57,057 nt of DNA, taken from Oceanospirillaceae bacterium (lineage in GTDB: Bacteria > Pseudomonadota > Gammaproteobacteria > Pseudomonadales > Balneatricaceae). The notes under the pieces were generated by a model, which worked only from the letters and a program-made list of their open reading frames with translations, was not told the origin of the DNA and searched no databases. Shown piece after piece: positions 30,607 to 56,413 of this stretch. The first letter of the stretch is position 1. Every line of letters starts with the position of its first letter. The stretch covers positions 1-57,057 of the forward strand of contig JABSRB010000004.1 of assembly GCA_013215375.1 (NCBI GenBank), given 5' to 3'. The position numbers and the translations under genes were made by a program.

Positions 30607-30939
30607 ATGATTCCAGGTGAAATTCAAGTCGCTAAGGGCAATATCACTCTCAATGCCGGGCGCAAGACGTTAAAAATGCGGGTAGAAAACAGCGGTGACC
30701 GCCCTATTCAAGTAGGTTCTCACTATCACTTTTACGAGACTAACCCCGCGCTAAAATTTGATCGCGAGCCCTGTTTAGGTTATCGCTTAAATATTGCCTC
30801 TGGTACGGCTATTCGCTTTGAGCCTGGCCAAGGGCGCAGTGTTGAGCTCGTTGAATACGCAGGCACTAAAACCATTTACGGCTTTAGAGGCCAAGTCATG
30901 GGTCAGATAAATACGCAGCAAAAGGGAGAGCAAACATGA
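30607..30939 (+). CDS. ureB: Urease beta subunit
   Basis: A 110-residue structural subunit with MIPGEI at the start and [20 protein letters not shown] at about 28-47. It starts 9 bp after ureA and overlaps ureC by 4 bp, giving tight coupling of the structural subunits. Confidence 0.96.
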
Positions 30940-32642
30940 GCGAAATCGATAGAGCCAGTTATGCGCAAATGTTTGGACCCACCACCGGCGACAGAGTGCG
31001 TTTAGGCGATACTGAGCTGTGGATTGAAGTTGAAAAAGATTACTGCCAATACGGTGACGAGGTTAAATTTGGCGGCGGTAAAGTAATCCGTGACGGCATG
31101 GGACAATCTCAGCACTGTAATGACGTGGCAGTTGATACGGTGATTACCAACGCGCTTATTTTAGATTACTGGGGCATCGTTAAAGCGGATGTAGGCCTTG
31201 TTGATGGACACATTAAAGCCATAGGCCGCGCCGGTAATCCAGACATTCAAGATGGCATCGACATTGTCATTGGCCCAGGCACTGAAGTAATCGCAGGTGA
31301 GGGCTCGATCCTTACCGCCGGCGGAATCGATGCGCATATTCACTTCATCTGCCCGCAGCAGATAGAAGAAGCATTAATGTCAGGTGTCACTACCATGATT
31401 GGCGGTGGCACTGGCCCCGCGACAGGCACTAAGGCCACCACTTGTACGCCGGGGCCTTGGAACATCGGTAAAATGTTACAAGCGACCGATAACATGCCGA
31501 TGAACTTGGGTTTCTTAGGCAAGGGCAATGGCAGCTTGCCAGAAGCTTTAGCTGAGCAATTAGAAGCGGGCGCCTGTGGTTTAAAGCTACACGAAGATTG
31601 GGGCACCACTCCCGCCTCTATCGACAACTGCTTATCAGTGGCTGAAAAGTACGATGTGCAAGTGGCGATCCACACCGACACCTTAAATGAGTCCGGGTTT
31701 GTCGATGACACCATTGGCGCTTTTAAAGATCGGGTGATTCACACTTACCACACTGAGGGCGCTGGCGGCGGTCACGCACCGGATATCATTAAGGCCTGTG
31801 CATACCCTAATGTGCTGCCCTCTTCCACCAATCCAACGCGTCCTTACACCCACAATACCGTGGATGAGCACTTAGACATGTTGATGGTTTGCCACCACTT
31901 GGATAGTAATATTCCCGAAGACGTCGCCTTCGCCGATTCAAGGATTCGTAAAGAGACCATCGCCGCAGAAGATATACTGCACGATCGCGGTGCCTTTAGC
32001 ATGATCTCCTCCGACTCCCAAGCGATGGGAAGGGTCGGTGAAGTCATCACTCGAACTTGGCAGAGCGCGCACAAGATGAAAGTGCAGATGGGGCTGCTAA
32101 AAGAAGATTTAGAGCGTGGTGCCGATAACTTCAGGGCCAAGCGTTACATTGCTAAATACACTATCAACCCCGCTATCACTCACGGTATCTCTGAGCAAGT
32201 AGGCTCAGTAGAAGTGGGCAAGCTGGCCGATTTAGTACTGTGGAAACCCGCCTTTTTTGGTGTCAAGCCTGAGCTTATTATTAAAGGCGGCATGATAGCG
32301 GCGGCGAAAATGGGCGATCCCAACGCCTCTATCCCCACCCCGCAACCCGTGCACTATCGCCCGATGTTTGCAGCACTTGGCCTGGCACCTGCCAACACTT
32401 GCATTACCTTTGTTGCGCAAGCGGCACTGGATAACAATATCGCGCAAAAACTGGGATTACAGCGACAGTTAGTCGCCTGTAAAAACACCCGCAATATTAG
32501 AAAAAAAGATATGAAGTTAAACGACTGGCTACCCGATATTACTGTTGACCCGCAAACTTATGAAGTGCGTGCCGATGGTGAATTGCTCAATTGCGAGCCA
32601 GCCAAAATACTGCCCTTAGCGCAGCTTTATAATCTTTTTTAG
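30936..32642 (+). CDS. ureC: Urease alpha (catalytic) subunit
   Basis: A 568-residue nickel amidohydrolase that hydrolyses urea to ammonia and carbamate. Active-site features are all present: the HIHF metal pair at about residue 134, the carbamylated lysine in GLKLHEDWG at about 217, AIHTDTLNE at about 245, [15 protein letters not shown] at about 270, the flap cysteine in MVCHHLD at about 319, and the aspartate in SSDSQAMGR at about 360. Length and motifs indicate an active enzyme. Confidence 0.97.
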
Positions 32643-54844: not shown

Positions 54845-54867
54845 AAGATGCATTGATTTTACATCTT
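54845..54867. promoter_or_regulatory. NsrR operator upstream of nsrR-nnrS
   Basis: AAGATGCA-N7-TACATCTT forms a 23-bp dyad matching the known NsrR pattern. A second half-site-like GGATGTAAATTTATATC follows at about 54877. Position and match suggest autorepression. Confidence 0.75.
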
Positions 54868-54995: not shown

Positions 54996-56120
54996 TTATA
55001 TAGCGCTAACCGCCAGCTCCAGCACGCTACCTTGATGCAACAGCTGATAAACTTTATTGCGAATGTGATTAGCCTCCCGGTCAGTTAAGGTTTTATCCAA
55101 ATGCCTGATCGTTAACTGTAACAACAGATTTTTTTGTCCGCTGTGCATACCCATTCTAGCGTGTGCCGTTGATGGTAGATCGCTATAACGAGTGGCTGAT
55201 TTTATGTGCAACGATTCTATGCAATCTGCCTCAGCTAATTGACTGCGTAGTTTATCGCCAATCAACTCTTCGTCATAAGATTCCTCAACACAGATTGAAA
55301 GGTCTCGCTCAATGGCAGGCATCACGGACACTGGCTTATAGGGCAACAGATCATTCATTTGTCGCTGAATCCGTGGGTCATTATTACGTAGTAGACGGAT
55401 ATCGGGAATATTCTTGCGTAACATCAGCAATCTGTCTAAACCTAACCCCATCGCCAACCCGGTGTGTGTCGAAAGCCTTGCATTGTCGAGAATAGCGCGC
55501 GCTGTTAAACCGCATTCTCCTACTTCTATCCACTGCTGATTCCAGTACACATCAATTTGCACGCCCTGCTCTGTATACGGATGGGCCGAATCAACGATAC
55601 GCCATTGCATATTTGGCAATGCAGTGCGCATAACGATCTCTATCATTTGCTTGAGATCGCCAATATTCATCACCTCGCTGTAACGCGAATCGACAATACG
55701 CCATAAATCCAGTTGATGTGGTTCCGAACAGTGTAGCTTGTCGATACTGTCACGCCGATACACTATCCCCGGTAGTACCAACAGCAAATTTTTTGGTGGG
55801 TCGGTACACAAACTTAATAGTAGATCTGGAATGGCACTTGAAGTCTGAGTCCTAAGGATCATTTTATCGGTCACATAGCGGGTATATCGCTCATCACGTG
55901 CTGCACCATCACTAGGATAGCCCAAACGGTCGTAGTTATTCTCCAGCGAAACCACTGGATTATTACGACTAATTTGCAGGCGGCACTGCCAGTGTTGGGC
56001 CAAGGCATTGTGAATATCCGTTATTAACTGCCCTATGGCATGAGAACCCTGACTGGGATCCGATAAATCGCGTAAATTAAGGCTCTGAATTAGAGAAGAT
56101 GTTGATAATAAAGTTGGCAT
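54996..56120 (-). CDS. srmL: PheS-related ligase of unknown substrate (SrmL type)
   Basis: About 374 residues from ATG 56120 with GGAG 8 bp upstream; a GTG-opened frame reaches 56159. The class II synthetase core resembles the mitochondrial-type single-chain PheRS: motif 2 GIVYRRDSIDKLHCSEPHQL at about 130-149, and motif 3 AMGLGLDRLLMLRKNIPDIR at about 228-247. A C-terminal FDX-ACB-like domain (about 275-372) follows, starting KPVSVMPAIERDLSI. Phenylalanine-specific HQxEG after motif 2 reads HQLDL here, so the substrate may differ. The symbol is from my memory of the PheS-related mystery ligase family. Confidence 0.7.
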   Translation of the reverse strand: MPTLLSTSSLIQSLNLRDLSDPSQGSHAIGQLITDIHNALAQHWQCRLQISRNNPVVSLENNYDRLGYPSDGAARDERYTRYVTDKMILRTQTSSAIPDLLLSLCTDPPKNLLLVLPGIVYRRDSIDKLHCSEPHQLDLWRIVDSRYSEVMNIGDLKQMIEIVMRTALPNMQWRIVDSAHPYTEQGVQIDVYWNQQWIEVGECGLTARAILDNARLSTHTGLAMGLGLDRLLMLRKNIPDIRLLRNNDPRIQRQMNDLLPYKPVSVMPAIERDLSICVEESYDEELIGDKLRSQLAEADCIESLHIKSATRYSDLPSTAHARMGMHSGQKNLLLQLTIRHLDKTLTDREANHIRNKVYQLLHQGSVLELAVSAI

Positions 56121-56200
56121 TTGATTAGCTCCAATAAGGAAAATTGAAGCGGAATACACAAATTAATAAGCGTTAGCTTTTGCTACTTATTATTCGCTAC

Positions 56201-56234
56201 AACGAAAAACCCCCGGGTAGTGGCCCGGGGGTTT
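56201..56234 (-). terminator. Leader terminator or attenuator before srmL
   Basis: AAACCCCCGGG (minus strand, from 56234 leftwards) pairs over 11 bp with CCCGGGGGTTT around a 6-nt loop, and the transcript continues TTTTTCGTT. It lies about 80 bp upstream of the srmL start in the direction of transcription, so read-through would be needed to express srmL. The position fits attenuation. Confidence 0.75.
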
Positions 56235-56251
56235 CCGCAAATTAGGTACAA

Positions 56252-56329
56252 TTACCTGCCGCCCGCGCCGTAAACCTGCCGAGGGCGTATAAATCGAATA
56301 CAAAGAGACACTAACAAATTAATAATCAT
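56252..56329 (-). CDS. Candidate srmL leader peptide ORF
   Basis: A 25-codon ORF, ATG at 56329-56327 and TAA at 56254-56252, ends 17 bp before the terminator stem. The peptide starts MIINLLVSLC and ends IRPRQVYGAGGR. There is no good Shine-Dalgarno, so it might be chance. Position between an expected promoter and a terminator is that of a leader peptide. Confidence 0.4.
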   Translation of the reverse strand: MIINLLVSLCIRFIRPRQVYGAGGR

Positions 56330-56413
56330 GAAAGGGAAGATAGCTATTAACTCTGACTATGTCTAGATATTTTTATTAGCTACCAAATAACATAGAACAC
56401 CAACAACCGCTCT

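Follow-up and report, generated by a model that had tools for sequence, protein, structure and literature searches.

SrmL, a predicted ligase encoded in the window (the whole 57,057-nucleotide stretch of DNA analysed here), contains no phenylalanine, and its homologues are almost entirely free of this residue. Its gene follows a short leader ORF with a phenylalanine codon at a conserved place. We propose that SrmL is a mobile backup phenylalanyl-tRNA synthetase (PheRS), a one-chain enzyme of the mitochondrial type, controlled by its leader and made when Phe-tRNA(Phe) runs short. A protein that avoids one amino acid, a leader that tests the same one and the build of the enzyme that loads it make a rescue PheRS the best reading, to which we give a probability of roughly three in four.

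The absence of phenylalanine is extreme. We found none in 80 of 90 SrmL homologues and a single one in each of the other ten. These 10 residues compare with 991 expected at the rate of the flanking ORFs (271 ORFs, each at least 250 aa). The observed/expected ratio is 0.01, the next lowest (lysine) is 0.48, and no other amino acid is avoided to this degree. The sole other amino acid absent from any of the 90 is cysteine, in one protein. A non-redundant set (n=50, <75% identical) has 4 phenylalanines in 18,716 residues, and only 1 of 125 variable hydrophobic columns ever holds one. The host's own PheS has 21 phenylalanines among 328 residues and its PheT 30 among 796; the 21 aligned PheS positions are occupied by other residues, or by gaps, in all 19 SrmL rows compared. 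The phage copies L037, L119 and L120 have zero phenylalanine, which is notable because phenylalanine codons should be common in their visibly AT-rich loci. Among the 271 control ORFs six lack phenylalanine, and all six resemble spurious GC-rich frames by eye. Two of the srmL starts chosen by script are off: one is inside the gene (L035) and the other extends into a tRNA gene (L122). The only phenylalanine of L121 and that of L122 fall in stretches that depend on the start chosen, and that of L035 does not.

SrmL matches the NCBI family NF051887, 'PheS-related mystery ligase SrmL', over the whole profile (499.2 bits, cut-off 300, positions 1–349 of 349), scored in its longer, GTG-start form. 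That start, taken from the ORF listing, is less likely than the ATG at 56120, which has a GGAG upstream at 56132–56129. An earlier note on this DNA, made from the letters alone, had described a PheS-like protein with class II motifs, an FDX-ACB domain and altered substrate residues, and all of this is borne out. The class II core of PheS type matches Pfam tRNA-synt_2d (PF01409, 122 bits), and the FDX-ACB domain matches PF03147 (33.7 bits, cut-off 31.1). The SrmL sequences VYRRD and GLGLDR align with VYRCD and GMGVER of the host PheS (motifs 2 and 3), and the arginines of both motifs are invariant in the 46 rows of the alignment used for modelling (46 proteins). The AlphaFold2 model (pLDDT 94.6) has human mitochondrial PheRS (3cmq) as its top Foldseek match, at full length (E 2.6e-30, TM 0.79), and sequence search likewise puts mitochondrial PheRS as the best solved-structure match. 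An editing domain is absent from the chain, both in the Pfam domain search and in the model. The FPF pocket of bacterial and mitochondrial PheRS is missing: its two phenylalanines are replaced by His and Tyr (19 of 19 rows, and also the 46 rows), and its middle proline is Tyr in phage rows such as L037. The Gly-Cys-Gly of PheRS has become Glu-Cys-Gly, invariant in the 46 rows. These altered substrate residues fit a general avoidance of phenylalanine.

The host's complete pheS and pheT are open and adjacent on another contig, and srmL is therefore an extra copy. A literature search, to which subscription journals were mostly closed, found no paper on SrmL or on a phenylalanine-free PheRS.

The elements upstream of srmL are listed in Table 1. 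The earlier note had placed there a 25-codon ORF followed by an 11-bp stem terminator, and both are present. It had singled out the PRQVYGAGGR-like end of the ORF for conservation. The leader is indeed conserved, but that end, seen in a G-x-G-G-like form in gammaproteobacterial copies, is not the conserved part. What is kept is the phenylalanine codon.

Table 1. The srmL locus and its upstream elements, in window coordinates.
Feature	Position	Strand	Remarks
srmL, one-chain PheRS-like class II ligase with C-terminal FDX-ACB	54996..56120	minus	374 aa; Phe = 0 (translation)
Hairpin hiding the srmL Shine-Dalgarno	56128..56150	minus	GCUUCAA / UUGGAGC; GGAG unpaired 0.00 vs 0.33 in shuffles
Terminator hairpin	56207..56234	minus	AAACCCCCGGG-CCACTA-CCCGGGGGTTT; 11-bp stem, 6-nt loop, then TT
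25-codon leader ORF	56252..56329	minus	MIINLLVSLCIRFIRPRQVYGAGGR; in-frame start conserved across loci
Strand 2	56259..56269	minus	GGCGCGGGCGG; partner of strand 1, possibly also of the terminator 5′ arm (a pairing without statistical support)
Strand 1	56279..56287	minus	CGCCCUCGG; in leader ORF, just past the Phe codon
Control codon UUU (Phe)	56291..56293	minus	preceded by CGA (Arg) at 56296-56294
Promoter-like site	56337..56365	minus	TAGACA-17-TATCTT; 7 nt before the leader ATG

A phenylalanine-codon anchor lies upstream of srmL in 87 of 90 loci (most anchors were found by pattern, those of 11 loci by eye); the three loci without a visible leader are all phage. The codon is UUU in 84 of the 87 and UUC in 3, and UUU is used in 59 of 62 GC-rich loci. 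CGA precedes it in 73, and the pair CGA-UUU occurs in 71. The remaining 14 loci have another arginine codon (3), Leu (3), Ser (4), Cys (1), Ile (1) or Phe (2) in that place. We rejected arginine as the sensed residue on this count, with Leu, Ser, Cys, Ile or Phe before the phenylalanine codon in 11 of 87 loci. The motif CGATTTN5[CA]C[CT] matches 80 times when both strands of the loci are counted (1.55 million bases), and CGATTT is present in 71 leaders, so that the leader exceeds chance. The conserved peptide core is R-F-x-x-P around a single phenylalanine codon.

The reading frame is conserved too. The phenylalanine frame has a start no more than 15 codons from the phenylalanine codon in 84 of 87 loci; the two alternative frames have one in 21 and 10. 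If an upstream ATG or GTG at this distance and a stop ahead of srmL are both required, the figures are 84 of 87 for the phenylalanine frame against 12 and 5. Two of the three misses are wrong anchors (L033 and L034); once these are corrected, only L080 lacks a start. Classical amino-acid leaders hold several codons of the sensed residue, whereas most srmL leaders have one phenylalanine codon at a conserved place. Phenylalanine is frequent in the leaders of two phage loci, MNTNTTFNFFFSHKMV and MNMLNKNNFSFFMFDFFGTQARGAILLKE, each with a T-run hairpin; with several phenylalanine codons, they resemble the classical leaders.

Where the earlier note had named an unconserved leader and a promoter downstream of the terminator as signs against attenuation, we find a promoter-like site directly before a conserved leader. 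On its own this site does not stand out (a scan of 701 nt gave 3 matches, shuffles 1.9 ± 1.3). Across loci, 52 of 86 leader starts have a TANNNT box that ends 5–9 nt upstream, against 84 of 4300 random positions, a count that is somewhat generous because the leader starts were picked by promoter score. From this spacing of a −10 type box, the sequences suggest leaderless messages, and the window's own leader ORF, its ATG 7 nt past the −10 box, is probably leaderless.

Folding of the RNA adds a further layer. The 241-nt region upstream of srmL folds better than shuffles (z −2.92). Strand 1 pairs with a downstream strand (strand 4) at p≤0.05 in 68 of 87 loci and at p≤0.01 in 51 (shuffles keeping dinucleotides). 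In 50 loci (proteins <75% identical), strand 1 matched its own downstream region better than it matched those of other loci, with a mean rank of 0.155 (0.5 expected) and 26 of the 50 loci in the top tenth (KS p 5e-19). Neither test sets the window's own strand 1 apart (p 0.144, not significant; rank 0.53). The hairpin of strands 1 and 2 stands out in 22 of 62 loci. The antiterminator pairing for which the earlier note had called, between strands 2 and 3, is unsupported: against dinucleotide shuffles it is near chance (5 of 58 loci at p≤0.05), in a weak test for loci with a terminator, in which strand 4 as drawn by the script sometimes took in strand 3. The script for both pairings was run on 62 of the 87 loci.

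Our own scan found T-run terminators in 21 of 87 srmL leaders, the window included, against 9 of 435 shuffles that keep base content only. A consensus terminator tool did not call the window's hairpin, probably because three of the five T's are counted into the stem. The ribosome-binding site of srmL, recognisable in 83 of 87 loci, is hidden. In the 63 loci without a terminator it is unpaired to a mean of 0.12 against 0.30 in shuffles (again of base content only), and is lower in 57 of the 63; in the 20 loci with a terminator the values are 0.19 and 0.30, lower in 14 of 20. Masking by a stalled ribosome, modelled as equilibrium folding, barely frees the site (0.12 to 0.16 without and 0.19 to 0.24 with a terminator) and barely ties up the 5′ arm of the window's terminator (0.49 to 0.56).

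Rfam gave no T-box match, whether at gathering threshold in the window or in the leader with E values of up to 5. A known Rfam leader was also rejected: the best weak match is Leu_leader (E 0.15, 18.7 bits, gathering score 50). Elsewhere in the window (31089–31371, minus), Rfam matches the 5′ ureB small RNA (88.7 bits), on the strand opposite the early part of a urease alpha-like ORF (30936–32642, plus).

We infer the induction of SrmL, the switch of fold and the substrates, phenylalanine and tRNA-Phe, from these features as follows. During normal growth the ribosome would read through the leader ORF and leave strand 1 free to pair. The off state of srmL would combine the paired ribosome-binding site with, in gammaproteobacteria and some others, the terminator. 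When charged tRNA-Phe is scarce, the ribosome would wait at the leader phenylalanine codon and cover strand 1, which would block the off structure and allow srmL to be expressed. Because the srmL message is essentially without phenylalanine codons, it could be translated to full length during the shortage, and SrmL, a single chain like mitochondrial PheRS, would then charge tRNA-Phe. The comparison of 90 loci thus lends support to the earlier suggestion of attenuation, in which stalling on the leader would control the ligase, the antiterminator pairing apart. That note had expected the leader to reveal an amino acid or a drug; the phenylalanine codon and the phenylalanine-free product point to phenylalanine, and not to a ribosome-acting drug. 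Several points count against this scheme: the small effect of masking on the equilibrium fold, the near-chance pairing of strands 2 and 3, the window's own strand 1 pairing, the single phenylalanine codon of most leaders and the three phage loci without a leader. Moreover, a second synthetase alone would not help where the amino acid itself is missing. In nature the shortage most likely arises when an inhibitor or toxin puts the normal PheRS out of action, since a second enzyme helps only if the first fails.

As judged by its occurrence in sequenced genomes, srmL is rare and mobile. Above the family cut-off, the host was the only one of 96 near genomes to carry it (these include the host and six others of its genus), and it was present in 3 of 369 genomes of the class and in 1 of 398 of the phylum, with the host included in every count. 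From GTDB genomes, a scan recovered 264 relatives at E≤1e-3, of which the best 80 were examined. Plasmids of Azotobacter and Glutamicibacter carry srmL, and a Corynebacterium plasmid has a partial copy (loci L035, L036 and L038). The gene is also present in one giant phage record, LR745206, and in four viral contigs; a second viral scan returned the same four contigs and no further viral loci. Other phage records were rejected as SrmL, with 25–30% identity over part of the query and a resemblance to ordinary PheS. Two contigs, one filed as Acidithiobacillus marinus and one as Pseudomonas indoloxydans, share a 1,948-bp stretch that includes srmL at 99.95% identity. In a same-genus genome that shares neighbour genes, homology ends at 54867, 129 bp before srmL, and this leaves no clean empty site. 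A tree of 47 of the 90 proteins, in which the bootstrap had not settled, has the Actinomycetota in one group and the phages in another; one cyanobacterial and one Melainabacteria copy fall with gammaproteobacterial SrmL.

The surroundings of srmL vary. Operon partners were sought and rejected, the largest neighbour clusters outside Kribbella-type loci spanning 4 loci. The Kribbella-type neighbourhood is the only widely recurrent one found; in Kribbella loci, including L069, L074 and L096, srmL is near ORFs that by eye resemble ribosomal proteins L11 and L1. The Azotobacter plasmid copy is near insertion sequences, and that of Glutamicibacter (L036) is near a Cmx chloramphenicol exporter. The partial copy of C. 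diphtheriae lies between erm(X) and tet(65), and a shorter partial match occurs on another Corynebacterium plasmid.

Phage loci also bring tRNA genes. In phage L121 the closest tRNA gene to either side of srmL is tRNA-Phe(GAA), and in L122 a tRNA-Phe is the second nearest upstream; each of these giant phage contigs has 12 tRNA genes within 7 kb around srmL. Three tRNA-Glu genes lie downstream in L119, and L120 and L037 have no tRNA. In LR745206 no tRNA is near srmL in the last 49.8 kb. We found tRNA-Phe in 0 of 85 bacterial and plasmid loci, and no tRNA gene in the window. The srmL of L119, on a 508-kb phage contig with no leader seen, follows a frame that by eye is like the end of a histidyl-tRNA synthetase.

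Could SrmL answer the shortage of Phe-tRNA in another way, by loading tRNA-Phe with a substitute (tyrosine or a phenylalanine analogue) so that translation continues? Its pocket does differ from that of bacterial PheRS (His and Tyr, with Glu-Cys-Gly invariant in 46 rows), it has no editing domain, and a second PheRS would be useless if the amino acid itself were lacking. However, the changes at the two phenylalanine places are what avoidance of phenylalanine would force. Cytosolic PheRS, with Asn-Pro-Tyr at the pocket places, still takes phenylalanine, and general miscoding would in our judgement gain phages and plasmids little. We regard substitute loading as unlikely. It is less probable again that the leader senses a ribosome-targeting drug through an arrest peptide, as erm and cmx leaders do by stalling, with SrmL as some other kind of resistance factor. 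R-F-x-x-P is conserved as a peptide, the L036 copy adjoins a cmx gene and a partial copy is near erm(X) and tet(65). Yet the arginine is changed to Leu, Ser, Cys or Ile in nine loci that keep the phenylalanine, the phage leaders have only phenylalanine in common, and a product free of phenylalanine would go unexplained.

That last objection applies also to the idea that SrmL is a ligase modifying a peptide or metabolite, with the 25-codon ORF as its substrate, along the lines of tRNA-dependent or microcin-type pathways. The NCBI family name, mystery ligase, and a small ORF adjoining srmL in nearly all loci examined would suit it. The leader past RFxxP, though, mostly varies between groups and tracks the RNA pairing, and no neighbour family recurs in more than 4 loci outside Kribbella-type loci; of all the readings we hold this to be the least probable. 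CGAUUU might instead be an untranslated RNA signal in an incidental ORF, given that its six nucleotides, wobble positions included, are kept in 71 of 87 loci, GC-rich ones too. This is very improbable in view of the start and stop in the phenylalanine frame (84 of 87 against 12 and 5), a −10 box that fits a leaderless start in 52 of 86 loci, and a phenylalanine codon that stays the same while the codon before it varies.

For a family labelled a mystery ligase by NCBI, a backup PheRS would supply a function that can be tested. It would also be a case of extreme selection on composition, in which a whole family has been freed of one amino acid and can be made without that aminoacyl-tRNA. The spread over plasmids, several phyla and giant phages would, if the reading is true, mean that an undescribed PheRS-directed agent is common in nature. 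Natural inhibitors or toxins of PheRS are predicted, with srmL as a marker by which to look for them. The chances seem evenly balanced for the wider view that SrmL represents a type of rescue synthetase, devoid of its own amino acid and induced by hunger for that tRNA, and that antibiotics, toxins or phage defences directed at PheRS are common. The same combination, in which a synthetase lacks its cognate residue and has a leader to match, can serve as a search pattern for every other amino acid.

How does SrmL compare with known systems? Mitochondrial PheRS (FARS2; TIGR00469) joins a PheS-type core and an FDX-ACB domain in one chain, as SrmL does, at about 23–25% identity in the fold match. 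The FPF pocket is, by alignment, a feature of the mitochondrial enzyme and not of SrmL, and FARS2 is a nuclear housekeeping gene that is not known to lie behind an attenuator. Bacterial PheST is a phenylalanine synthetase, as proposed for SrmL, and E. coli pheST has a leader with phenylalanine codons (pheM) and an attenuator. Unlike SrmL, it has two subunits, is rich in phenylalanine (21 and 30 in the host) and is a housekeeping enzyme.

Auxiliary resistant synthetases (MupA, AgnB2 and the second TrpRS against indolmycin) are, like srmL, extra copies beside the normal enzyme, and Streptomyces TrpRS1 is under ribosome-mediated attenuation. The accessible text of PMC7916415 reports extra synthetase copies for TM84, albomycin, borrelidin, mupirocin and indolmycin, names ochratoxin A as a phenylalanine analogue acting on PheRS, and does not mention absence of the cognate residue. 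Those synthetases have inhibitors; for srmL both the inhibitor and the resistance role are putative.

For mycobacteria, PMC4633059 proposes small ORFs in a leaderless setting, ahead of the controlled genes, that contain codons of the amino acid to be sensed, and leaderless cysteine attenuators are, by its title, the topic of a later paper. The mycobacterial attenuators are cysteine-rich and precede metabolic genes, whereas srmL has one conserved phenylalanine codon before a synthetase. Finally, enzymes of amino-acid biosynthesis avoid their scarce cognate residue as a statistical trend (PMC4209129, whose accessible text does not mention tRNA synthetases). The logic of shortage is the same as for SrmL, in which the avoidance is about 100-fold.
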